Below, in pieces: positions 42,201-62,511 of a stretch of 64,000 nt of DNA. Origin of the DNA: Spinacia oleracea. Its lineage: Eukaryota > Streptophyta > Magnoliopsida > Caryophyllales > Amaranthaceae. The stretch lies in NCBI RefSeq assembly GCF_020520425.1, contig NC_079489.1, positions 20,546,001 through 20,610,000 of the forward strand. The letters run 5' to 3'. Positions within the stretch are counted from its first letter, which is position 1, and the number at the start of each line of letters is the position of its first letter. A model generated the notes under the pieces. It saw only the letters and a list, made by a program, of their open reading frames with translations. It was not told where the DNA came from and made no database searches. The position numbers and the translations under genes were made by a program.

Positions 42201-43040
42201 TTGGTTGAATCCAGCCCAACTCCTCTTCTCCAGAGACAGGTTGTGATGGGCTTGCCTGCTCGTCAAAACACTGGGCCCAATTCTATGTGGGCTTTTTCGA
42301 GGCAAGCTGGGCCAAGAAACGGGTTTCACTCTCAATTCATTTCTAGGCCGGGTGGGGTCATTTGTCAAGGCCCGGCTTTTCCTGACCCGTTTGAGGCGGG
42401 GCCAAGTAATTGGCATGGTCTTCATGAGGGATCTCCAACGCCGCAGAACTCGCCGGAAAGGGAACAACAGCAAAGGGGATCGCCGTCGCCTTCACTGTCG
42501 GATTCTTTTCCCAACCGCCCAGCGCCGGCAGACGTTGATTATGACGCTGATTCATCGTCATCAGCCTTCCACTTTTCTACAACTCCGACAAATCCAGATT
42601 CCCCTCATTCAGGTTTGGCGGTTCTTCATCATCACACTGACTCTGAATCTTCTTCTGGTTCTGATACTGGGCCGACGCCAATGGACTACTCCCCACAATC
42701 AATGGCTGGTTCTCACAATTCTACTTTCTCTGATGAGTCGTCTTCTCCGTCAGTCCATAACAACATATCAATGCCTCTGAAATTATCTCGTAAAGGAGAT
42801 AGGGTGTGGAAATGGGTGAAGAATATATGTCCGGTGAAGCGTAAGTCTCGAGATGGTGGTCGGGGTTCTGGTTCGCACGTCTCTCCTTGTTGTTCGCTTG
42901 CTCTTCCGGTGAAGAAGAGGATGTGTTGTGCGTGTTCCAAGGGTCTCAATTCGGCTCCTGTGGTTTCTGCTTCTGTTCCTCATAGGGGTGATGGGTTAGG
43001 TATTGTGGTCGACCTTAATGGGCCACCAGCTGATCAGTGA
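42201..43040 (+). CDS. LINE ORF1, C-terminal part
   Basis: An open frame of 279 codons, extending upstream of 42201 to about 42168. It is rich in Ser, Pro and Gly, with a basic segment (WKWVKNICPVKRKSRDGG) and a Cys-containing stretch near its end. Plant L1 ORF1 proteins usually have an RNA-binding domain and CCHC knuckle followed by such a disordered tail. Here only the tail remains, so the element was truncated within ORF1. Its TGA (43038-43040) overlaps the first codon of ORF2. Confidence 0.7.
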   Translation: MVESSPTPLLQRQVVMGLPARQNTGPNSMWAFSRQAGPRNGFHSQFISRPGGVICQGPAFPDPFEAGPSNWHGLHEGSPTPQNSPEREQQQRGSPSPSLSDSFPNRPAPADVDYDADSSSSAFHFSTTPTNPDSPHSGLAVLHHHTDSESSSGSDTGPTPMDYSPQSMAGSHNSTFSDESSSPSVHNNISMPLKLSRKGDRVWKWVKNICPVKRKSRDGGRGSGSHVSPCCSLALPVKKRMCCACSKGLNSAPVVSASVPHRGDGLGIVVDLNGPPADQ

Positions 43041-46000
43041 AAATATGTTCCTGGAACTGTAGGGGTTTGGGTAATGCGGACTCCCCTAAGGTTCCTTACT
43101 TGGCTTCGTTAGTCCGCTCTTTTGGTGTGGATATTATGTTTATTATGGAAACTATGGTGTCTTTAGGTAGTTCTTGTCAAAAGTTGTCTTCCCTGTCATT
43201 TTCTGGGTCTTGCGGGGTTGATGCGGAGGGTTTAAGTGGTGGTTTGCTTTTGTTGTGGTCTTCGAATGTACAAATATCTCCTATTTCCGTGTCGAGTCGT
43301 TTTGTACTTTGTTCTTGTACAAATGTTGTGGATAATGAAATAAGCTATATGTTGTTTGTGTACGGTGCGCCTCATTTGCAGGACCGATATTTAGTTTGGA
43401 ATGATATTGCAGCTATCATTTTAAACTATCCGAATATCCTTTTGATTGGAGACTTTAATCAGGTCGAGTTTCTAAATGACAAATTGGGAGGCTCTCGGGT
43501 TATTCCAGGGAGGCTTGAATTCATTCAATGGCGGTTAGAAAATGGATTGATTGACATTCCTTTTTCTGGCTCGCCATTTACCTGGACTAATAACCACCAT
43601 GATAATACTGTTTCTTTTGAGCGATTAGATAAGGCGTATGCCTCGTCAGACTGGTTGCGGATGTGCCCTGATGCTTCTGTCATCCATCAACCTATATTCC
43701 TCTCGGATCATTCAGCAATTATTCTAAGTTCGGACGCAGCTGTCTGTGCTCGTCGTCCTTATAGGATTGAAAATTGGTGTCTGCATGCTAAACCTGTCGT
43801 GGAATTTGTTATTTCCACTTGGAATCAACACTTTCTGGGTTCTCCTATGTTTGCTTTGTGTTCAAAGCTTTCGTTGATTCGCAATTTCTTGTTAACTTGG
43901 TGTGTTCAGAATCGACGGCTTTGGGGAATTAATTGGAGGGAGGTGAATTCTATGGTGGCTACTGCGGCCTCATCTATTGCGCCTAGCCCTTCGGCTTCTC
44001 TCTTTATTACTTCTAAGAACGAATGTGTTGCTAGAACGCAGGCTATGTTTATGTATTGGCGTCAGCGATGTAAGATTAAATGGGATGCGTTTGGTGATAT
44101 TCATTCTCGACTCATTTTTGCTTCGGTTCAGGCTAGAAAAAGGAAAAATTTTATTCATAGCCTGCAAAATAATGAGGGCACGACTGTACGGGATGGCCCT
44201 CAGCTTCGCCAGCTTATCTCAGATTTCTATTTAGATTTGTTTGAGGCTCATAAGCCTGATGTTCCTCCTTTGGAGTACGATTGGGGTTCACTTCACCTTC
44301 CTTCTTTATCTGTTGAGGATAAGGGTCTTCTCATGAGTCCTTTTTCTGGAAATGACATCCGTCATGCTATGTTCCATATTTCGGATAATAAATCTCCAGG
44401 CCCTGATGGGTTTTCAGCTGCTTTTTTTAAGCTTCACTGGAATGTTGTTGGAGACCATGTTATCCAGGCTATTCAATTTTTCTTCGCTCACGGCTTCATG
44501 CTTAAAAATTGGAATCGTACTTTCTTGATTCTTCTTCCTAAGGTACTGTATCCGGAGTCTGTCTCTCAGTTTCCACCGATTGGGCTTTGCAATGTCATTT
44601 ATAAGTGTATTGCGAAATGTCTCACCCATAGGATGCGTTTGGTCTTGCCGTCTCTGATCAGTGATACTCAGAATGCTTTTGTCCCGGGTCGCTTAATGTC
44701 GGATGAATGCCTTGTGGCCCATGAACTCATGTCTTACATTAATCGAATTAAAGCAAAGAAGAAATTTTGGGCCGTTGTAAAGTTGGATATGAATAAGGCC
44801 TATGACAGAGTTCGTTGGGATTTTCTTTTTCAGGCCCTGCATGAGTTTGGGTTTCCTCCTTATTGGGTTAACATCATTCGTCAATGTGTTACATCAGTTT
44901 CTTATCAGGTGTTGGTTAATGGTGAGCCGTCTCGCTCCTTCACTCCCAAGTGTGGTTTGCGTCAAGGGGATCCGTTATCTCCATATCTGTTTGTTCTATG
45001 TATGGAAGTTATGTCGGCACTATTGCGTCGTGCGGAGCAGGAGCACCTTATTCAAGGCATCTCAGTTTGTAGGGGAGCTCCTTCGATTTCGCACCTGTTC
45101 TTTGCTGATGATTCACTGCTGTTCTTCCGGGTTTCGCCTAGGGAGTGCGATCAGGTGATCTCTATTCTTGAAGAGTTCAGCGGTTTATTAGGTCAGGTGA
45201 TTAATTATCAAAAGTCTTTTGTCAAATTTAGTCCTAATACTCCTCAAGATTATCGTGATTACTTGGCGGCCTCTCTTCGCCTTGGCCAACGATCTTCGCT
45301 GGGTCCCTACTTGGGAGTACCGGTTGACATTGGTCGCTCGAAGTGTTCGGTTTTTTTTGACCTGGTGGATATCATAGCTCGTAAGCTGGCTAATTTTTCG
45401 TCCCTTCACCTGTCCGCGGCGGCAAAGTTGGTAGTTATCAATTCAGTGTTGGTAGCTTCGATTACTCATGTGCTTTCAGTGTTCTTGATCCCGAAATCAA
45501 TTTGTGACCGCATTGACAGTTTATGTCTTCGGTTTTGGTGGCGCTCTTCAGCTGCTTCGAAGGGTATGGCTATGGTGTCGTCTTCACTTCTTCACCTTCC
45601 TAAGGGTATGGGAGGATTGGGAGTCAGGAAGATTAGCACTTTCAATCAGGCTTTGCTAGCAAAAACTGCCTGGCGCATTGTTCACCACCCTCAGTTGTTG
45701 GTCTCTCGTTTGTATCAAACTCGGTATCCTGCTCTTGCTATTCATCCTCCTTCGACTAGGGTGTCTTGTCCATCTTGGGGTTTTAGGAGTCTTTCTCGGG
45801 GTTTCCAAGTGCTTGACCAAGGTATTGCTTGGAAGCCTAGTGCGGGTTCTCGGATTCGTATTCTTCAGGATACGTGGGTCTCTATGGATCGTATTTCGTT
45901 TAGATCTTCGGTGAATGGGTTGGATTGTCCTACCCATGTTTCTTCTTTACTTGATCCGCGTTCTTACGCGTGGAATATTGGTATGGTTCGTCGTTTTTTC

Positions 46001-46672
46001 CTGGATAAGATTTCATCTCAGATTCTGGCTCTGGAGCGTCCAACCTCGGAAACGGATGATTTCTTATATTGGAAATTTGCTCTGGATGGGAAATTCACGG
46101 TTCGTTCGGCTTATGCGATGCTTTTGCGTTCTTCTCATCATGCTGCTGGGGTGACTTCTCTTCCCTCTTCTTCCTGGTGGAAGCATTTCTGGGGCTTGGA
46201 TATCATTCCACGGTTTAAGCTTTTCTTTTGGAAACTGCTTCACCAGGCTTTGCCGCTGGCAACCTTCCTTTGCCAAAGAGGTTTGCCAGTTGACCCTCTT
46301 TGTTCATTATGCAATCAGGACCCTGAAAGTGATTTACATTTATTCCGGGATTGTCCTTTGCTTTTGAATCTTTGGTCATCTGGCCCTCTTCGTATGTTTT
46401 GTCCTTCAGTTGCTTTGGATAGGTTTATTCCCTTGTGTGTTAAGTTTGTTAATAACCTGTCATCTGGACCGTTGGGTCTGTTGGATTGCTTCATTTCGAT
46501 GCTTTGGGCAATCTGGGTTTTGCGTAATCACGCTCGGTTTCGTAATATCCCTGGGACCCGGGAGCATTTCATGTTATGGTTGAGGGTTGGAGAGGTCGCT
46601 GCTTTGAGGTTCGTTTGCTTCGCCGTAGTTCTAAGGAGTCTCCGTTGTTTCAAGGGAGCTCTTCCCGGGTGA
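43037..46672 (+). CDS. LINE ORF2: endonuclease, reverse transcriptase, zf-RVT
   Basis: 1211 codons without a stop. An APE-type endonuclease fills about residues 1-235 (WNCRGLG, GDFNQ, SDHSAI). Reverse transcriptase lies at about 450-740 (KSPGPDGF near 452, GLRQGDPLSPYLF, FADD near 689). The zf-RVT domain lies at about 1020-1110 (WWKHFWGL, CSLCNQDPESDLHLFRDCP). The frame opens with GTG overlapping the ORF1 stop (GTGA); a usual plant LINE would have ATG here, so either the start codon has mutated or ORF2 is made by reinitiation. The RNase H domain that should follow is in another frame from 46576, implying one small indel around 46580-46670. Confidence 0.9.
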   Translation: MKICSWNCRGLGNADSPKVPYLASLVRSFGVDIMFIMETMVSLGSSCQKLSSLSFSGSCGVDAEGLSGGLLLLWSSNVQISPISVSSRFVLCSCTNVVDNEISYMLFVYGAPHLQDRYLVWNDIAAIILNYPNILLIGDFNQVEFLNDKLGGSRVIPGRLEFIQWRLENGLIDIPFSGSPFTWTNNHHDNTVSFERLDKAYASSDWLRMCPDASVIHQPIFLSDHSAIILSSDAAVCARRPYRIENWCLHAKPVVEFVISTWNQHFLGSPMFALCSKLSLIRNFLLTWCVQNRRLWGINWREVNSMVATAASSIAPSPSASLFITSKNECVARTQAMFMYWRQRCKIKWDAFGDIHSRLIFASVQARKRKNFIHSLQNNEGTTVRDGPQLRQLISDFYLDLFEAHKPDVPPLEYDWGSLHLPSLSVEDKGLLMSPFSGNDIRHAMFHISDNKSPGPDGFSAAFFKLHWNVVGDHVIQAIQFFFAHGFMLKNWNRTFLILLPKVLYPESVSQFPPIGLCNVIYKCIAKCLTHRMRLVLPSLISDTQNAFVPGRLMSDECLVAHELMSYINRIKAKKKFWAVVKLDMNKAYDRVRWDFLFQALHEFGFPPYWVNIIRQCVTSVSYQVLVNGEPSRSFTPKCGLRQGDPLSPYLFVLCMEVMSALLRRAEQEHLIQGISVCRGAPSISHLFFADDSLLFFRVSPRECDQVISILEEFSGLLGQVINYQKSFVKFSPNTPQDYRDYLAASLRLGQRSSLGPYLGVPVDIGRSKCSVFFDLVDIIARKLANFSSLHLSAAAKLVVINSVLVASITHVLSVFLIPKSICDRIDSLCLRFWWRSSAASKGMAMVSSSLLHLPKGMGGLGVRKISTFNQALLAKTAWRIVHHPQLLVSRLYQTRYPALAIHPPSTRVSCPSWGFRSLSRGFQVLDQGIAWKPSAGSRIRILQDTWVSMDRISFRSSVNGLDCPTHVSSLLDPRSYAWNIGMVRRFFLDKISSQILALERPTSETDDFLYWKFALDGKFTVRSAYAMLLRSSHHAAGVTSLPSSSWWKHFWGLDIIPRFKLFFWKLLHQALPLATFLCQRGLPVDPLCSLCNQDPESDLHLFRDCPLLLNLWSSGPLRMFCPSVALDRFIPLCVKFVNNLSSGPLGLLDCFISMLWAIWVLRNHARFRNIPGTREHFMLWLRVGEVAALRFVCFAVVLRSLRCFKGALPG

Positions 46673-47508: not shown

Positions 47509-50500
47509 ATTTTTTTTTTTTTTTAAGAAGGTAAGAAAAAAGACTTAGGTTCCCCTTCGCACAAGGGTGAAACCTAAGCTGTCACTTTGAACAATATTAT
47601 CTAAGTTAGGGCTAGAGTTCGGGGTGATACACAATGGTTCAACAATAAGATGTCCTACATTAGCTATCCAATCTGCTGCTCTATTTGCTTCACGGAAGAT
47701 ATGCTTGATATGGGTAGAGTGAAAATGCTGAAGAAGAGTCCTGCTATCTTGAATAATGTTTTGAAGCTTCCACGGGGGATTCCAGATTCCTTTTAGCGAG
47801 TTGATCACAAGTAGGTTGTCACCTTCGATGTAGATGTCTTTAATATTCAGTTTGATAGCCTCTTGGATGCCCTTATGAAGGGCTAGGGCTTCTGCCATGT
47901 AGACTTGCGAGTTACCCAGGTTAAAAGATTTGGCGATGACCGTATCTCCATTGTTGTTTCTGATGATGATACCTCCTGCTGCTGATGAGTCTTTTCGTGA
48001 TCCGTCGAAGTTGAGTTTGAAGGCGCCCAGTGGGGGCGGGAACCACCGCACAAGAATGGGATGTGGGGTGGTTGGAAGAGAAGTGGAAGGATGATGAGTG
48101 TTGAAATGGTTAACTCTAAGTTGTTGTGAGTCAATCTGGAGTCTAAGCTCCCATTCTTTGAAGGTGTTAAGAGCTTTAAAATAGCAGCGGCAGGGGGAAA
48201 GCTTATTGTTGGAGAACACTAAGGCATTCCTTTCCTTCCAAATAGTCCAGCAAACGGTAATGAACTTCCTGAGCGCAACTTGGTTCCGTCTAAGGTAGTC
48301 TAAAGTTTTGAAGAAATCCGTCATAGGGAAGGAGAAATCGAACCAATTTTTAGTTAGTCTATGCATCCAGACATTTTTTGTGTGCTCACAATTGAGAAAG
48401 AGATGATTAATATTCTCACTGGGATGGTTACATCTAGGGCAACAACTTGAGGGAATAATTTTCCTATGAAAAAGAGTTTCTTTAGTTGGAATACTTTTAT
48501 GGCAAATTTGCCATAAAAAGATCTTTAGTTTTGGAGCTATATTGAGTTTCCAAATCCATCTAAACTCCCATTTTTTATCAAAGACTGGGAGTTCGTGGGC
48601 AAGCCAGGTAGCGGATTTAACTGAGAACTCTCCAGAGTTTGTGCAGCCCCAAATGGGGTTGTCAGGCAGTTCATTAACAGGGATAGGGATCCCTTTAATT
48701 TTTTGCACCAACTCAGGTGAGAGGAACGAAGAAAGTTTCCTTATATCCCAATTTTTGGATTCATCAATGAACGAGTTCACGTAGACGTCTCCCCTATTAC
48801 TATTTGGGGAGTTGCAAGGGAGATCAGAAAGGGCATATTGACCAACCCAGTTATCTTTCCAGAAATTGATGTGATTCCCATTGCCAATCTTCCATCTAAT
48901 TCCTTTCCTCAAAATCTCCCTTTGGTTTAAAATGCTGATCCAAATAGGAGAGTCTTTAATTTTTCTCTTGGCAGAGAAGAAATTTGTGTTCTGAAGATAT
49001 TTTTTCCTCATGATTTTTGCCCAAAGGTTATTTTCGTCTGTTAGGATTTTCCAGCCTAGTTTTGCGATGAAAGCTCTATTCAGAGGGTAGGTTCTTCTTA
49101 AACCTAGCCCTCCTTGATCCTTAGGCTGACAGACTTTGTTCCAGGCAATGAGAGGGAGTTCATTACCTGACTTGGATTGGTTCCAAAAAAATTGGCGATG
49201 AATATTATCCAATTGATGGCACGTCTTCCTTGGAAGTAGGAAGGAAGAGCAAATGTAGGACGGGAGGGCTTCAAGGTTGCTTTGAATGAGCGTTGTTCTA
49301 CATGCTTTGGATAGAAAGTTAGCTTGCCAGGAGTTTATACAGCGTTCATTTTTTTGCATGATGCGTAGATAGTCAGATCTTGTAGGTGTGAAACTTGAGA
49401 AGTGAGCTCCCAGATATCGACCTAGAGACCCAGATTTATGCATATTAAAAATGCTGGCCAATGCATCTCTCTTGGGGTGGTTGATATTCTTTGAGAAGAT
49501 AATAGCTGATTTATGGAAATTCACTAATTGGCCTGAGAGTTTACAGAAGTCAGTGATGACTTTGAGTAAGTTATGGCATGCGGAGTTAGTGGCTTTACAT
49601 AAAAGTAGGCTATCGTCTGCAAACATTAAACATGGGATTTTTATAGTTTGTGGCGCTATTTTAAATCCGAGCCCTAGGTTAGGTCTCGCACTGGCATTAT
49701 TCAGCATGATTATAAAAACTTCCATGCATAAAATAAAAAGGTAAGGAGATAGCGGGTCTCCTTGTCTTAACCCTCTAGACGGGGTAAAAACATCCGTGGC
49801 TGAGTTGTTAACTTTGATAGAGTACGAAACTGTAGTCACAGTTGCTTTCGCCCAGTTTATCCAGGTTGTAGGAAAGCCCATTTTGTCAAGAGTAGCCCAA
49901 AGGAAATCCCATTCTATTCTGTCATAAGCTTTTTCCATGTCCAGTTTAAGAGCACACCATCCAACTTTGGATTTTGATTTCTTAAAAACATTGAGGATCT
50001 CCTGGACTAAAAGCAAATTATCATGGATGGACCTGCCAGGGGTGAAGGCGTTTTGGAAGGGGCTTATGTGTTTTTGAAGAATAGGACTTAGTCTAGAGAC
50101 TAGGAGTTTAGAGATAGCTTTATAGATCGTGCCGCAGAGGCTGATTGGTCTGAAATGATTGGGGTTCTCTGGGTTATCATTTTTGGGGATAAGAGCTATA
50201 AGAGTGTGATTCAGAAAAGGCGGCATTTTTCCGTGTGAGAAAAAGCTCTTTATTGCTAATGTAACTTCAGGGCCGATTGTTTTCCAGTAGGTTTGAAAAA
50301 ACTTTGGCCCAAATCCATCTGATCCTGGTGCCTTGAGCGGGTTCATAGTAAAGAAACTATTTTTAATCTCCTCGTCTGAGAAGGGGGCGATGAGACTAAG
50401 CCTATCGGAATCAGAAATTAATTGTGGGAGAAAATCTAGGTTAATTATACGCCCAGGCTGAACGGATGTTTTGAATCTATCTTGAAAGGAGTTAAAGAGG

Positions 50501-51436
50501 ATGTTTTGAACGTTCACTTGCCCCTCCTCCCAATGGTTGTCAGCATTCTTTAGTCGATAGATGTGGTTTTTCGCGGCTCTTTGTTTCATGAGTTGGTGGA
50601 AAAATCTCGTGTTTCTGTCTCCTTGATTCAGCCAAGTTTTTTTTGCAGAATTTTTCCACAAGTGTTGTTTTTGTAAGAGGATCTTTTCTCGTTGTTTGAG
50701 CATTCTTAAAAGGTGGTTTTGCCAGATAGGGTTGAACGGTTGGGTTATAAGCTTATCTTCAAGTTCTTGAATTTTATCTGCATTAGTTTTAAGTTGCATG
50801 GTCTTGTGTGAGAATTTTCCTTTCGCCCAATTTTTTAGGTCGCCTTTTATGTTGGTTAGTTTGGATCTTATTCTAAAGAATCTTGAACCTTGAGTATTGC
50901 AGTTCCAATGCTTTTTAACAATTTTAGCTGGTTCATCCTCGAGAGTCCAAGAATTTTGGAATCTGAACAATCTATTCACCATAATGGTCTCTGAGTTTGT
51001 ATCAAAGAACATTGGGGCATGATCTGAGCTAGTAAAGGTACCATATTTAACTGATGCGTTGGGGAATTTATCAGTGAAGATATTGCTTGCGACGGCCCTA
51101 TCTAGCCGTTGATACAAGCCTGGGTGGGATTGGGATTTCCAGGAGTACGATTGTTGTATGCACGCTATGTCTGTCGCATTTGAACGAGTAAGAAACCTTG
51201 GAAGTCTCTGGCATTGTCTTTGTGAGACTGGGTTGCCTCCACATTTATCCGAATTATGTAAAAGTTCGTTAAAGTCGTCGACGAGGATCCAGGGAATATG
51301 AATGTTTTCATAGAAGGTAGATATCAGCTCTCAGAATTGGTCTTTATCGTTGTTTTGTGCCGGGAAATAAGCCCCAGAGACAAGAATTTGCTCATTGGTT
51401 GGTTTATAAAGAACGTTAAGGTGAGCACATCTATCT
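47509..51436 (-). mobile_element. L1-type LINE with 17-bp target duplication
   Basis: On the minus strand the element runs from inside the endonuclease domain (51436) to a poly-A tail (T run at 47510-47524). It is flanked by GTTATATCTCTATACTT (47492-47508) and GTTATATCTCTCTACTT (51437-51453), 16 of 17 identical, which is the target duplication. So it is one 5'-truncated insertion of 3.9 kb. It lies 115 bp downstream of the HYH stop codon in the same orientation. Confidence 0.93.
47545..51330 (-). CDS. LINE ORF2: partial endonuclease, RT, RNase H
   Basis: An open minus-strand frame of about 1260 codons without a stop; the segment from 51117 alone is 1190 codons. In order: endonuclease C-terminus (DDFNELLHNSDKC, where GDFN is usual; LDRAVAS; SSDHAP), reverse transcriptase (LKAPGSDGFGPKFF, RGLRQGDPLSPYLF, FADDSLL), zf-RVT (CCPRCNHPSENINHLFLNCE) and a complete RNase H with all acidic residues (NFDGS, MAEALAL, IYIEGD, REANRAAD). 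One in-frame TGA at 51331-51333 cuts it from the remaining 34 upstream codons. No ORF1. The intact length suggests a young insertion, dead on arrival through 5' truncation. Confidence 0.9.
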   Translation of the reverse strand, partial: ELISTFYENIHIPWILVDDFNELLHNSDKCGGNPVSQRQCQRLPRFLTRSNATDIACIQQSYSWKSQSHPGLYQRLDRAVASNIFTDKFPNASVKYGTFTSSDHAPMFFDTNSETIMVNRLFRFQNSWTLEDEPAKIVKKHWNCNTQGSRFFRIRSKLTNIKGDLKNWAKGKFSHKTMQLKTNADKIQELEDKLITQPFNPIWQNHLLRMLKQREKILLQKQHLWKNSAKKTWLNQGDRNTRFFHQLMKQRAAKNHIYRLKNADNHWEEGQVNVQNILFNSFQDRFKTSVQPGRIINLDFLPQLISDSDRLSLIAPFSDEEIKNSFFTMNPLKAPGSDGFGPKFFQTYWKTIGPEVTLAIKSFFSHGKMPPFLNHTLIALIPKNDNPENPNHFRPISLCGTIYKAISKLLVSRLSPILQKHISPFQNAFTPGRSIHDNLLLVQEILNVFKKSKSKVGWCALKLDMEKAYDRIEWDFLWATLDKMGFPTTWINWAKATVTTVSYSIKVNNSATDVFTPSRGLRQGDPLSPYLFILCMEVFIIMLNNASARPNLGLGFKIAPQTIKIPCLMFADDSLLLCKATNSACHNLLKVITDFCKLSGQLVNFHKSAIIFSKNINHPKRDALASIFNMHKSGSLGRYLGAHFSSFTPTRSDYLRIMQKNERCINSWQANFLSKACRTTLIQSNLEALPSYICSSFLLPRKTCHQLDNIHRQFFWNQSKSGNELPLIAWNKVCQPKDQGGLGLRRTYPLNRAFIAKLGWKILTDENNLWAKIMRKKYLQNTNFFSAKRKIKDSPIWISILNQREILRKGIRWKIGNGNHINFWKDNWVGQYALSDLPCNSPNSNRGDVYVNSFIDESKNWDIRKLSSFLSPELVQKIKGIPIPVNELPDNPIWGCTNSGEFSVKSATWLAHELPVFDKKWEFRWIWKLNIAPKLKIFLWQICHKSIPTKETLFHRKIIPSSCCPRCNHPSENINHLFLNCEHTKNVWMHRLTKNWFDFSFPMTDFFKTLDYLRRNQVALRKFITVCWTIWKERNALVFSNNKLSPCRCYFKALNTFKEWELRLQIDSQQLRVNHFNTHHPSTSLPTTPHPILVRWFPPPLGAFKLNFDGSRKDSSAAGGIIIRNNNGDTVIAKSFNLGNSQVYMAEALALHKGIQEAIKLNIKDIYIEGDNLLVINSLKGIWNPPWKLQNIIQDSRTLLQHFHSTHIKHIFREANRAADWIANVGHLIVEPLCITPNSSPNLDNIVQSDSLGFTLVRRGT

Positions 51437-56373: not shown

Positions 56374-56885
56374 TTGTTCATTTAAAAGTTGCTATTTTTT
56401 GACACGTTTACATAAATAACTCATTAGAATTTATCATAATCTACGTTAATTTTAAAAATCTTTCTTGTTTACTTCTTTTTTTTTTGAAAAAATTGATTAT
56501 AATAATCAAATTTTTGGGCCGTTCTCTTTTATTAATTCCACATATAATTTTATTTTAAAAATAATTCGAACGTTAATAGTCACTCGCTTTCAACAGTCGC
56601 ACATGACTGATAACCAGTCGAAAGGGTAATATTGATCATAATTTTTAAAGAAAATAATCCTACGCTCTCACCTCCTTCTTTATCTCCAGTCATCATCATC
56701 TCACCATTGCCCCTTTCTCTCCTTTCGTCTTGCCTCCATGGCTCCATCATCATCAATTCTTTATCTTCAATCACAAGTGACTGCCTTCCTCTTTCCCCAA
56801 TTCTTTTCTCCATTTCATGTGGTGACGCAAAATTATTTACCAGGAGAGACAAAGAAGAAGCAGAGAGGAATATAGAGGGAGTTGG
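56374..56885. other. Spacer between the Helitron and the LTR nest
   Basis: Mixed AT-rich and pyrimidine-rich DNA. The pair of overlapping open frames at 56580-56904 comes from a TCTCC-rich stretch and shows no domain. Nothing else is seen. Confidence 0.4.
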
Positions 56886-59800
56886 TGTTGGAAATTCTCA
56901 TTAGGAAACACATAGAAAAGAGTGTAAAATAAGAGAGTCCCACATTGGAAAAACTCTTCATATTCTCCTTGTTTATTAATTGGGGTGTGGATGTAACTCT
57001 TGTTTGAGAAAGTGTGAGAATGGTATGTGTTGGAGTTTTACTCCTTTCGGTCTATGTTGAAAAACTCCAAATTATGTTGCTTCAAAAGAATTAAAGTTTC
57101 CGTAAATACAATGTGGTTTTTCCTATTATGAATCATAAATTTTGGAGCATAATTATTGAATTGATTGTGTAATTCAACTAATTGATTTGTTGGCCATTAT
57201 TACCTTAATTGCTTCCTCTATTTATGGCCTAATTGATGACCAATTAATAGCCTTCCATATTTGTTGATTCTTTTGGCCTATTTAAAAAGGCAATTGATTC
57301 TTCCTCCAGACACAGAAGAGAAAACCTTATTCATCTTCTCCAAAACTACAAACACAAAATCGACTATTGTTCTGGGTATTGCTTAAGGGTGTTCTCAATC
57401 TTCGTATCCGTCCACACCGGAAATGAGGAGTCGTGTAACCCTAGGGGTTGATTGCCATGAGTCCGCGTGTGTGTAGCGGGGCAAATTCAACTTTAGGGCA
57501 GTGATTGGTGTCACGCCACGACATAATTTCAGATAAGCCATTCAAATTTAATCTGCTATTAGTCATATCTCCTACAATCTAAAGTTGAATTTGCCTTTTT
57601 ATTATTATGGCTAATAGTACTGTGTTAAAATGTTGTTGTTACGAGGATTATCTGTCTAAATGCGATTCAATCGCTGCCGCAAGGAACAAAATTTTACTGT
57701 TGTTTTGTTTGATCGGTATAGTTCAAGGGTTTGATAATAATAATAATATCAAAACCCAAATATACATTGGCATACATGTTTGTTGTACTTCGTATATTTG
57801 TGCGGCTAGAGCTTCTATAACCCACGTTTTTTTCTACCTAGTCAAACTTTTCTCATATTTTAAATTACAAATTTCATCAGTTTTTTCGATCCAGTAGTTA
57901 ATGCATTCTTGCTCCCATTAATCAATGACGGGAAAAGTTAGTAATGTTGTGGTGTTCTTTATCTCTTGTTCCTGTTCAATTGCTTTCTGATAATTTTAGG
58001 CAACAAGAAAGATGTTAAAAAATTTAGTGCACACAAGGTGTTCGACGGAATGTCTGAACCAGTTGCAATGAAGGATCAGGAACTGATGGGCTTAGTTTCG
58101 GAAGTACACTGGGGGATTTATGACGAGGTGCAAGTTGGCTACGTGCGTGGCTAGTAGAAGCACCAAGCATTGATCCGGAAAAGTGAAACATGGTCGTATA
58201 CTCGGAAAAACTCAGAAACATGTTGATAGTACTCTAAAAGTACTGTTTTTAAACATGATAAAGAGTAAGAAAGCGAGGTATGAGATACAATGAGGTTAAT
58301 GCTAATTCTATTTTTTTTTGGTAAGTTTTGCAGTGGCATTATATAATCAAATCAAGTTCTGATTAAAAATGATGAACACAATGCTTATCAAAGAGTAGTA
58401 ATGAAGTCCAGATCTAACTAGTGGCTCCAACATGTTTCGTACAAGTCAGGGAAGTTTCTTCCCTGCATTTTATTTTGGCAAACTCTAAGTTATTACATAA
58501 TATGTACGGAGTAGTAAAGTTCCCTTCCTTGCGTGGTATGTTATTACTATGTTTTGATACTTTAACAGTTTGATGGTCAATGTGGTGTGCTCTCCATTAA
58601 TCATTGAAATGTACTTTGCAGTTATGGGCAAACGAGTATGCTTGAAATGCCCATTGGTTTAATTGAAAGTGATAATTCTATTATGGTGTTGAGTGTCCAT
58701 ATCATTGGATTCTACCATTAGAAAAGTTTTTGGATGTTAGCTCATTGTGGGGGTAAGGTGATTTTTCTGTTTCTCCACATTTTTATTACATATTACTATG
58801 TATGTGGGTTGTCAAGTACTATGAGTTGATTGTAAAATGTGAACTCCATTGTTGGTGAAGCCGACTCCATAAGTATTATGTGTTGTGGCTTACAAGCTAT
58901 AATTGAGAGAGCTTGTAATGTAATTAGAATATATATACATGCTTGAGGCATGGATATTGATCATGAAAAATTATGATATCATGTGAAAATGAGAGGAATA
59001 TGAGATTCTCATCAAAGGCCTTTGTATAAATTTTTTTGCTGGAGTCAGCATTGAGGAATGGATTTAAAGCCTATGTGGAGTGAATTGTGATTGATACCCG
59101 TCTTAAAAATAACTAAGTTCAATGGGTCAAACGAAGTCACAAAAGAACTCAAGTAATGTACTACAACCATTCCTATTAATAAAAGTGATGTAGTATTTTT
59201 TCTACTGTCATATGTGTAAGGTTGAGCCAAGGATCTTAATAAGTTTATAGCCTTGTAAAGGTGGTTTGTGACAGTACAAACTTGATGAGCTTACCTATGT
59301 GAATGTGGGGGTTACGCCCAATCCCCTATGAGGTTCCTTAGGCTAGGACCTCTAGAGCGTTCATGAAAAACCAGGCATATGTGGGGCATTGACTATTAAA
59401 GTTCGCGAGAACACTACTTGTTTTGAGAAAAGTTTGGTGCGCTCTTGTGTTACTACAATCCCCATGCAAGGTTCAAGGGTAATTCTACCTTACATGGTTG
59501 TATGACATACTAGTATGCACTAGGTATCAATTCAAATCCACAAGACATTGATACTTGTAAAACTAAGTATCCCTTGCCCAGAACATCTTCTCTTAATAAA
59601 GCCTATTTTCTTTTGAATCATGTGGGGGAATGTTGGAGTTTTACTCCTTTCGGTCTATGTTGAAAAACTCCAAATTATGTTGCTTCAAAAGAATTAAAGT
59701 TTCCGTAAATACAATGTGGTTTTTCCTATTATGAATCATAAATTTTGGAGCATAATTATTGAATTGATTTTGTAATTCAACTAATTGATTTGTTGGCCAT

Positions 59801-61238
59801 TATTACCTTAATTGCTTCCTCTATTTATGGCCTAATTGATGACCAATTAATAGCCTTCCATATTTGTTGATTCTTTTGGCCTATTTAAAAAGGCAATTGA
59901 TTCTTCCTCCAGACACAGAAGAGAAAACCTTATTCATCTTCTCCAAAACTACAAACACAAAATCGACTATTGTTCTGGGTATTGCTTAAGGGTGTTCTCA
60001 ATCTTCGTATCCGTCCACACCGGAAATGAGGAGTCGTGTAACCCTAGGGGTTGATTACCATGAGTCCGCGTGTGTGTAGCGGGGCAAATTCAACTTTAGG
60101 GCAGTGATTGGTGTCACGCCACGACATAATTTCAGATAAGCCATTCAAATTTAATCTGCTATTAGTCATATCTCCTACAGTATGGTGGACACGTAACACA
60201 CATGCACGGGCTCGGGCTGTGGCCCGTAGTACTTGGTACTTGGGAAAGCGGTTCGCAGGCGTGGAGTGGGTTTTGTGGGTGATTACGAGAATCTGTGCAT
60301 TTTTCTGCCGTTACAATCTTCATTTTTCCAGCTGTTTATGATTGTTGCTCTCCTTAATTCTGATTAATCATAATTTCGGTTCATTTTCCAAAACACTGAA
60401 ATATTCAAACACATTCCCAGAAAAATACAAACACACATTCTTTCATGGTTTTGAGCATATGTTTTGACTTCTTCTGGTTTTGTGAGTGCACACAAAGTCG
60501 GCGTTGCGCTAATCCCGGAGGGAGACCGCATTCTGTTCTACTGCACCGGGAGGTAGCGCGGAATCGTCTTTTAGGACAGTGGGTGTCCACGACGCAACAA
60601 TTGTTCATTAATCGGTTCATCAACCAGATAAGTTTGTTCTAATTTTTGTATTATCACGACAATCTAAAAGACGACTATTATGGCTATGAATTCGAAATTT
60701 CTTAATCCTGACATGTCGAAATTGGAACCTCTTGATGGCAAGAATTATAAACGTTGGGTTGTTAGGATGAGATTTTATTTGGAACAAATTGATGTTGCTT
60801 ATGTGATTGGTGATGTTGTCGAACCTGATGATGAAACCGAATTGCATGCTTTTGAGTATAAATTTGCTAAAGATGATAGGCCATGTAAGGGCATATTGTT
60901 GCATCATATATCGAATGCATTTCTTGATATCTATATGGGTTATAATCATGCCAGGCATATTTGGGATGAATTAGATACGAAGTATGGAACTGATGATGCT
61001 GGTACTAAACGTTATTATGTTGGTAAGTGGTTAGGCTTTCAAGTTGAGGATGATAAACCAATTATAGATCAGATTCATACTTATGAAAATGTGTGCATTT
61101 CTAAGGCTACTGAAGGCCTTCAAATATGTGATATTTCTCTTGCTATTGTGTTGATTGAGAAACTCCGCCTATCATGGAAAGATTTTCGTAATCAGTTAAT
61201 GCATAAGAATAAACACCTTACCTTAGAGGAGCTTATAG
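56886..61238 (+). mobile_element. Ty1/copia-type element: 5' LTR and gag, interrupted
   Basis: The 5' LTR starts TGTTGGAAATTCTC at 56886 and ends at about 60661 (CACGACA). It is split by the 57028-60179 element and is about 620 bp without it. The gag starts at 60680 with MAMNSKFLNPDMSK and contains copia gag features (LDGKNYKRWVVRMRFYLEQ, IWDELDTKYG), running to 61238 where a second element is inserted. The expected tRNA-Met site is absent after the LTR. The stretch CTAAAAGACGA (60664-60674) stands in its place and is complementary to 60564-60574 in the LTR. The rest of the element is not visible here. Confidence 0.8.
57028..60179 (+). mobile_element. Young non-autonomous LTR element, complete ends
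   Basis: Two 549-bp LTRs (57028-57576 and 59631-60179), TGTTGGAG...CTCCTACA, differ at only about two positions. The target duplication is GTATG (57023-57027 and 60180-60184). The LTR has a TATA-like TATTTAAAAAGG near 57280. A polypurine GTGGGGGAA precedes the 3' LTR. The 2.05-kb interior encodes no gag or pol. It has an ATG frame at 57607-57897 and an open, codon-like stretch at 57966-58154 that I cannot place. Ends look whole; age by LTR identity is well under a million years at usual plant rates. Instead of a tRNA site, CTAAAGTTGAATTTGCC (57579-57595) follows the LTR and is complementary to 57480-57496. Confidence 0.93.
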
Positions 61239-62511
61239 TGATGGAAACGTGTCCTTCACCCAAGGTGCATTAGTCCATACTAAGGTTCAGATTAATTTCG
61301 AATAATAAATTCAGTAAAATCAAGTGATCGGAACAGCTAGCTGGAGCATTACTTCCGATCAGTGAGTTATAATCCTTATTAGGCTCACAGCTTACGCTTG
61401 ACTGAACCTACAATGTCACACCAATGATATAAAACAGATCTCCGGATTAAATGAATTGGAAATTAATTTAATGGATTTTCGGGAAATTAGTTTGGAAAAT
61501 ATAAATATACAATAAGACATAGGATCGGAATCGTATATCGCATTGCGTATATTCGTAAGCTAGGAGAAACGAATAATCGTATCGTACGACATTGGATCAT
61601 CAAGTACTTTACGATAAATAATGACCGTAAGGCATTAGACGCAAAACACGAGAAGGGACAAGCAACGTAGCGGCCAAAGAGCCAAGAGCGCAAGCGCTCA
61701 AGGCCCGCATGCCACATCGTTGCCAGCACGCGCAGAGCAGGCCCATGGCCTCGCGGTTGGACACACATAGAAGCAACAATAGCAGCGCCAACCAAGCGCG
61801 GCCCAAAGCCCACGCGCGGGAGGCTGTGCTGTGCGAGTGGGCTTGCTGGACGGTTGAAGGCTAAGTGCCTTTGGCCGGTTATCTTAATAACCCTAAGGGT
61901 TATTTCCCTAATTTTTACTTGTTGTTTTCCTAATACCTTAAGTTATACACTAAACCCTAGCACAACTTGAGATTCCCAATTCTCTCTGTGTGGCACCATA
62001 ATGTGTTCATCCCAAAAGCCTAAACCCTTGATTAAAGATCTAAGCTATCAATACTCAAGGCGGATCTGCACGTGTCGGTGGAAGTTTGTAGAGGAACTAC
62101 GTTGGGAGTTCTCGTTCGTGTTCGTAGAATAATTCGGTAGTACACGTTACAAAAGTATGTATTGCTTAAACTATACTTTTTACATGGATCCTTGATTCAG
62201 GATTATTCCGCTAATTAATATGTTAATTAGATTGACTGTAAATCCCATCAGTGGTATCATGAGCTTCATGTATTTAAAGTACTTTTTAGAAAATTTTCAT
62301 GTTTTGAATCTGGTCGAATTTTATGTTTTTCTTTTCTCTTCGAATATTTTTCCGAATTATTGGATGAATCGTGAAAAAACTGTTGCTTTCGAAAAGTATC
62401 GGATTTTCGATTTTTCTAAGCCTAAATTGACTGGAACCGACGTTCTAAGTTGAACTCCTAAGACCGGATCTGCGAAATTCAGCCCCGAAGTATGAATTTT
62501 TGGGCATTTTT
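61239..62511 (+). mobile_element. LTR element inserted in gag: 5' LTR and leader
   Basis: The LTR runs from TGATGGAAACGTGTCC at about 61239 to CCCATCA at about 62250. It is followed at 62252 by TGGTATCATGAGC, a primer site for initiator tRNA-Met of the usual copia kind. Its start resembles the LTR of the next element (shared GACTGAACC, GGCGGATC and GC-rich blocks), so the two are related families. Only about 260 bp of interior is seen before the next insertion. Confidence 0.75.

Follow-up and report, generated by a model that had tools for sequence, protein, structure and literature searches.

The window, a stretch of 64,000 nucleotides from the spinach genome, contains two LTR retrotransposons, one inserted into the other, and in each of them a short word near the end of the 5' LTR is complementary to the sequence just beyond that LTR. 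The features of the two elements are:

about 56886-57027: 5' part of the host 5' LTR, split off by the nested element
57028-60179, + strand: young nested element
57028-57576 and 59631-60179, + strand: LTRs of the nested element, 549 bp, 2 mismatches
57279-57285, + strand: TATA-like word TATTTAA, 204 bases upstream of the start of the nested 14-base primer (the same distance as in the related copy L016)
57480-57496, + strand: putative nested self-primer, found again in the element's 3' LTR at 60083-60099
57501-57514, + strand: predicted hairpin GTGA(TTGGTG)TCAC behind the nested primer, from the fold of the window copy
57579-57595, + strand: putative primer binding site (PBS) in the nested element, pairing over 17 bases with 57480-57496, 82 bases between
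60180-60661, + strand: 3' part of the host 5' LTR
60564-60574, + strand: putative host self-primer TCGTCTTTTAG, on the U5 side of the 5' LTR
60579-60590, + strand: predicted host hairpin GTGG(GTGT)CCAC, 4 bases behind the primer 3' end
60664-60674, + strand: putative host PBS CTAAAAGACGA, exact reverse complement of 60564-60574
60680-61270, + strand: start of the host gag (Retrotran_gag_2), an open frame of 201 codons with its ATG at 60680

A preliminary description of this DNA had claimed that the two host words pair exactly and that they sit within a conserved frame. Both the words and their coordinates proved correct, with 89 bases between the exact reverse complements, and the frame is present as well: TTTAGGACAGTG stands on the LTR side, and ACA, AT and CTAAA follow one another on the other side, succeeded by ATTATGGCTA. 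The bases TTTAG form the 3' end of the host self-primer and lie opposite the first bases of the PBS, which begins after AT, 2 bases past the LTR end at 60661 (..ACA). The nested element lies inside the host 5' LTR, both parts of which match related copies, and is flanked by a 5-bp target duplication, GTATG; its LTRs have TG..CA ends, and it was the one element examined for these hallmarks. Its pair comprises, over 14 bases, AAATTCAACTTTAG (57483-57496) and CTAAAGTTGAATTT (57579-57592). The complementary run is 17 in L016, as in the nested element itself, and the nested form of the hairpin recurs in related junctions.

By their domains the elements are Ty1/copia, an assignment made with Pfam from pieces of related elements and, in the window itself, from the gag of the host copy. 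Among these pieces, gag was found in both of those scanned for it (the window host and L014), RVT_2 in four of four, and integrase in two of two, in both cases placed between gag and the reverse transcriptase, which is the Ty1/copia order.

We searched 894,210,420 bases of genome sequence for the frame around the pair. The pattern TTTAGGNCAGTG..TCTAAA matched 318 places, against 8 for a reversed-pattern control, and the narrower CTTTAGGGCAGTG..TCTAAAG matched 90 places against none. Loci were gathered through the patterns and through gag homology (the best 150 of 1237 and the best 150 of 2111 candidates), and their junctions were anchored by the frame; these anchors fix most of the TTTAG/CTAAA core, demand no further complementarity, and reach only families in which the core is unaltered. 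Loci L001-L069 and L090-L149 gave 123 junctions, the window being read apart. Because loci partly overlap (L010 and L057 are one copy, and L008 and L039 contain the host element of the window), the junctions were collapsed to 94 distinct sequences.

Uninterrupted pairing of at least 11 bases was observed in 80 of the 94 distinct junctions, and the remaining 14 still had 11-13 pairs over the first 14 places, except for L005, where a one-base deletion in the LTR word leaves 6 of 14 places paired. Families that keep the frame and lack the complementarity would, according to the preliminary description, speak against the pairing; apart from the deletion in L005, no such case occurs among the 94. 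A junction was found in 66 of the first 69 loci, with L002, L005 and L052 giving none. At the expected place, a run of at least 12 bases was found in 13 of 20 gag-anchored loci; L095 and L096 have other DNA upstream of a shortened U5, and L091, L101, L104, L105 and L106 have substitutions in the primer or the PBS. A pattern with a pyrimidine after CTAAA matched a single place, in L069, a mutated copy of a known family. In L002, at about locus positions 1501-1560, the PBS is present, the adjoining U5 seems to have been replaced by other DNA, and no primer was found.

To place these junctions and tRNA-primed elements under a common rule, we followed Neumann et al. and took the longest complementary run starting 0-5 bases past the LTR end. 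Sixty junctions had the 280 bases of upstream sequence used here; 51 of these reached 10 bases and 50 reached 11. The word of a tRNA-Met PBS occurs at 1733 places in the same genome, and none of 20 such junctions reached 8 bases (longest run 7); these were hand-picked for varied spacer bases on contig C1 from the listed part of the 1733, and some may belong to one family. When the upstream letters of the 94 junctions were shuffled, with the primer-to-PBS stretch as a shorter target, the longest run was 8.

As the TTTAG/CTAAA core is largely fixed by the anchors, only pairs 6 and beyond constitute a free test. Over pairs 6-13 a mean of 7.64 of 8 were formed, compared with 5.26 when the PBSs were redealt (maximum 5.96 in 2000 shuffles). 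Four main primer types were found, each matching its own PBS: AATCGTCTTTTAG with CTAAAAGACGATT, AATTGTCTTTTAG with CTAAAAGACAATT, AAATTCAACTTTAG with CTAAAGTTGAATTT, and AAATTCGACTTTAG with CTAAAGTCGAATTT; the others are point variants or, in L005, the one-base deletion. The matched changes read AATCGTC/GACGATT, AATTGTC/GACAATT, AAATTCAAC/GTTGAATTT and AAATTCGAC/GTCGAATTT, and change on both sides is most pronounced in five adjacent pairs. By our count at least three separate events are represented, one between the first two types, one between the last two, and one between both groups. We grouped the elements into five families of our own definition, two of which have one primer type in common; they differ in primer-to-PBS spacing (mostly 74-76, 81-83 and 87-93), and in comparisons of gag with P0002, relatives outside the P0002 family fell mostly near 80% or at 47-51% among the matches listed.

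Across the 29 distinct primer-PBS combinations, 91.4% of cells were paired, against 78.4% after shuffling and at most 57.3% in slid controls, and 58 cells were changed on both sides, against 25.5 after shuffling. Measures that count pairs or types fell within the shuffle range (103 and 60 of 500). The joint change of the variable part that the preliminary description had noted in one further family is seen at the same pairs in all five families found, and when these families were scored against chance, as it had suggested, none of 500 shuffles equaled either the pairing or the number of two-sided changes. Pairing, its position and its covariation are observed in several families. The earlier reading of compensatory change holds insofar as the pairing matters; it does not require two independent compensatory mutations, because self-priming would itself copy LTR sequence into the PBS. 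The covariation supports pairing and use as a primer, and would not by itself indicate selection on two independent mutations. We also considered PBS matches of 15-17 bases, present in 5 of the 94 junctions, as proof of such recopying from the LTR, and rejected them as comprising too few independent events.

RNAalifold, given 11 R-U5-PBS sequences that we chose as representatives, recovered the primer-PBS helix unaided, with 12 pairs, five of them changed on both sides and none broken. Behind the primer it also predicted a hairpin of the form GTGN..NCAC; the fourth pair of this stem varies with the family (G-C in the host, A-U or U-A in others). The hairpin pattern matches 91 of the 94 junctions and all four pairs are formed in 89 of these 91, scored as the best of four loop lengths, with a second register tying in one family; since pattern and anchor between them largely dictate three of the pairs, the fourth alone is a real test. 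The hairpin is in this sense a predicted, covarying structure. A third predicted helix lies upstream (TTCTGGG with CCTGGAG), and its changes are one-sided. Taken together over the 11 sequences, the three helices were 98.5% paired against 87.2% after shuffling (0 of 500 shuffles as high), and counts of pairs and of types were within the shuffle range (176 and 440 of 500). When copies were folded singly, the primer-PBS helix was part of the minimum-energy structure in six of six; for four of the six no shuffle folded as well, and for the host copy of the window and L010, 11 and 21 of 200 shuffles did. Rfam gave no match in window positions 56800-61300. The 11 aligned sequences share conserved motifs of the R region resembling TTYTGGGCAT and ACCCTGGAGG (columns 64-73 and 138-147); these might pair with each other, although their changes are one-sided.

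TATA-like words, sought with a loose pattern, lie 187-206 bases upstream of the primer in five of six distinct elements; the sixth, L012, has none nearby. With the RNA start assumed to lie 25-35 bases beyond such a word, the primer appears to be internal, at about base 150-180 from the predicted RNA start. An internal cut would leave only 74-93 bases of template for the first piece of DNA, so that R would have to reach past the cut, or the primer would have to act on a second RNA. A genome search for polyadenylated copies, which could have placed the end of R (the R/U5 border), found none and was uninformative.

We consider it very probable that the pair is the site at which self-primed reverse transcription begins in these Ty1/copia elements, a reading that is supported by the coincidence of the pairing edge with the two-base gap after the LTR. 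In the proposed sequence of events, 11-17 bases of R/U5 would fold onto the PBS, 2 bases past the LTR end, enclosing 74-93 bases of U5. A nuclease would then cut the RNA at the 3' side of the primer, between TTTAG and the following G or A and beside the conserved hairpin, and the freed 3' end would be extended across U5 by the reverse transcriptase of the element. Synthesis of the second DNA strand would copy the still-attached primer and so rewrite the PBS from the LTR, by which both sides would remain matched while families diverge. That this amounts to a layout other than that of Tf1, with an internal primer (about 150-180 bases), an internal cut placed by the hairpin, a PBS rewritten in each cycle, and an LTR and PBS evolving in concert, is a suggestion we put forward tentatively, and with some doubt.

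Several other explanations of the pair were weighed. Chance, or common descent of two short words that serve no function, would account for the invariance of TTTAG/CTAAA in the 29 combinations, although this core is part of the search anchors; it is contradicted by the four matched primer types and by the pairs beyond the core, which change on both sides together to a degree reached in none of 500 shuffles, and the slid controls, which keep the relatedness of the sequences that shuffles ignore, never exceeded 57.3% paired. We regard it as extremely improbable. A PBS for the 3' end of a tRNA would begin with TGG, the complement of the tRNA CCA end, whereas the PBS starts with CTAAA in both elements of the window and in the anchored junctions. 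Priming by a half-tRNA, as in Bianca, Osser and Bryco, would require that the LTR resemble a piece of the tRNA by coincidence or capture. Such PBSs exist in plant Ty1/copia elements (PMC6317226), and a core common to the families found, though again part of the anchors, speaks for this reading; however, when the four primers were compared with 20 tRNA genes, they matched at no more than 10 of 14 bases, equaled in 7 of 200 shuffles. A separate tRNA variant would also be needed for each of the four PBS types, with a copy of it in the corresponding LTR, and we hold this explanation to be highly improbable. The genes compared, 20 among 63 listed, represent Lys, Asn, Cys, Arg, Ile, Asp and Gly, with no Met or Leu; within this thin sample of seven amino acids, the pair of conserved tRNA-like matches that the preliminary description had raised as an alternative finds no support. 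ARAGORN detected no tRNA in eight loci or in the window stretch.

Alternatively, the pair could be a structural helix between U5 and the leader, comparable to retroviral U5-IR/leader stems, with a tRNA or tRNA fragment as the actual primer. The fold lends this some plausibility, as it also contains the hairpin and the possible upstream helix, and structure in this region may therefore extend past the PBS pair. Such a helix would nevertheless occupy the place of the PBS itself, 2 bases past the LTR end, which any primer needs and which here is without the TGG start of a tRNA 3'-end PBS, and all 20 tRNA-Met PBS junctions tested (listed places on one contig) were without such a pairing; we think a purely structural role very improbable. 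Closer to self-priming within one molecule is self-priming in trans, by the cut or the 3' end of a second element RNA. Given its position within R/U5 and its second copy in the 3' LTR (for the nested element, 60083-60099), the primer could also be supplied by the annealing 3' end of another RNA, and this would ease the strand-transfer problem posed by an internal primer. A fold within one molecule accords with the hairpin and with a spacing confined to 74-93 bases, although both are also compatible with use in trans. We judge trans priming unlikely, while noting that it is compatible with the pair as the site of self-primed initiation.

Self-priming as a phenomenon is not new, having been predicted for TAR elements of Ty1/copia in 2019. 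Neumann et al. (PMC6317226) predicted it for 12% of the plant LTR elements surveyed, including TAR, and refer to a previous suggestion of it for Houba and Osr-1, two members of the TAR lineage of plant Ty1/copia. TAR elements have been reported from spinach (PMC6337768), in a repeat paper from which the word self-priming is absent. A PBS of the TAR type, complementary over at least 10 bases to the 5' LTR and starting 0-5 bases past it, was found at 51 of 60 junctions, and on account of this PBS type membership in the TAR lineage is likely; the elements also resemble TAR in being Ty1/copia of a flowering plant. In contrast to our elements, TAR is not described in the portion of PMC6317226 consulted as having a hairpin behind its primer or as showing covariation between primer and PBS.

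The model system for self-priming is Tf1/Tj1 of fission yeasts (PMC4600332), in which the PBS matches the mRNA at its 5' end (PMC4600332, PMC5445492). A PBS complementary to the upstream RNA of the element itself, and a primer made by a cut, would be common to both systems, the cut being conjectural here. The primer lies at the mRNA 5' end in Tf1/Tj1, whereas here it is apparently internal, judging from the TATA-like boxes, and elements of the Tf1 type belong to Ty3/gypsy, those described here to Ty1/copia. According to a title in the references of PMC6317226, the self-primer of Tf1 escapes removal. Another title, cited in PMC4600332, speaks of an RNA structure that is required and that resembles the U5-IR stem-loop of retroviruses; going by that title, the hairpin found here recalls it. 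The fungal GalEa elements, also Ty1/copia without a tRNA PBS, have a Conserved Hairpin Site instead and thus a conserved pairing at the place of the PBS (PMC5445492). In GalEa, as that source presents it, the two arms are both located at the LTR end or beyond it, and U5 was not found to contain a complementary repeat, whereas here one arm lies in the LTR.

The less expected features are the apparently internal primer and the covarying hairpin. None of the titles and abstracts on self-priming that were covered reports covariation, or a hairpin beside the primer, for elements of this kind. Self-priming in plant Ty1/copia has so far been predicted from complementarity (PMC6317226); the matched changes in several families, together with the negative control of tRNA-Met PBSs, make a comparative case for it. 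Details that can be tested are now named, namely the 3' end of the primer, its internal position and the adjoining hairpin. Elements equipped with a primer of their own would have no dependence on host tRNA at the priming step. Such independence would also bear on host control by tRNA fragments.

Two further loci, G000:C3:23381758-23398318 and G000:C4:100748610-100786407, contain copies from a family closely related to that of the host, arranged head to tail mostly at steps of about 5.3 kb, and look like tandem arrays. The nested element, in which no ORF of at least 200 aa was found (region between the LTRs, 57577-59630), has the primer type, the hairpin and a similar U5 in common with coding families, by which it may be mobilized. 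Elsewhere in the window, ORFs of 1211 and 1190 aa are present at 43037-46672 (+) and 47545-51117 (-), respectively.
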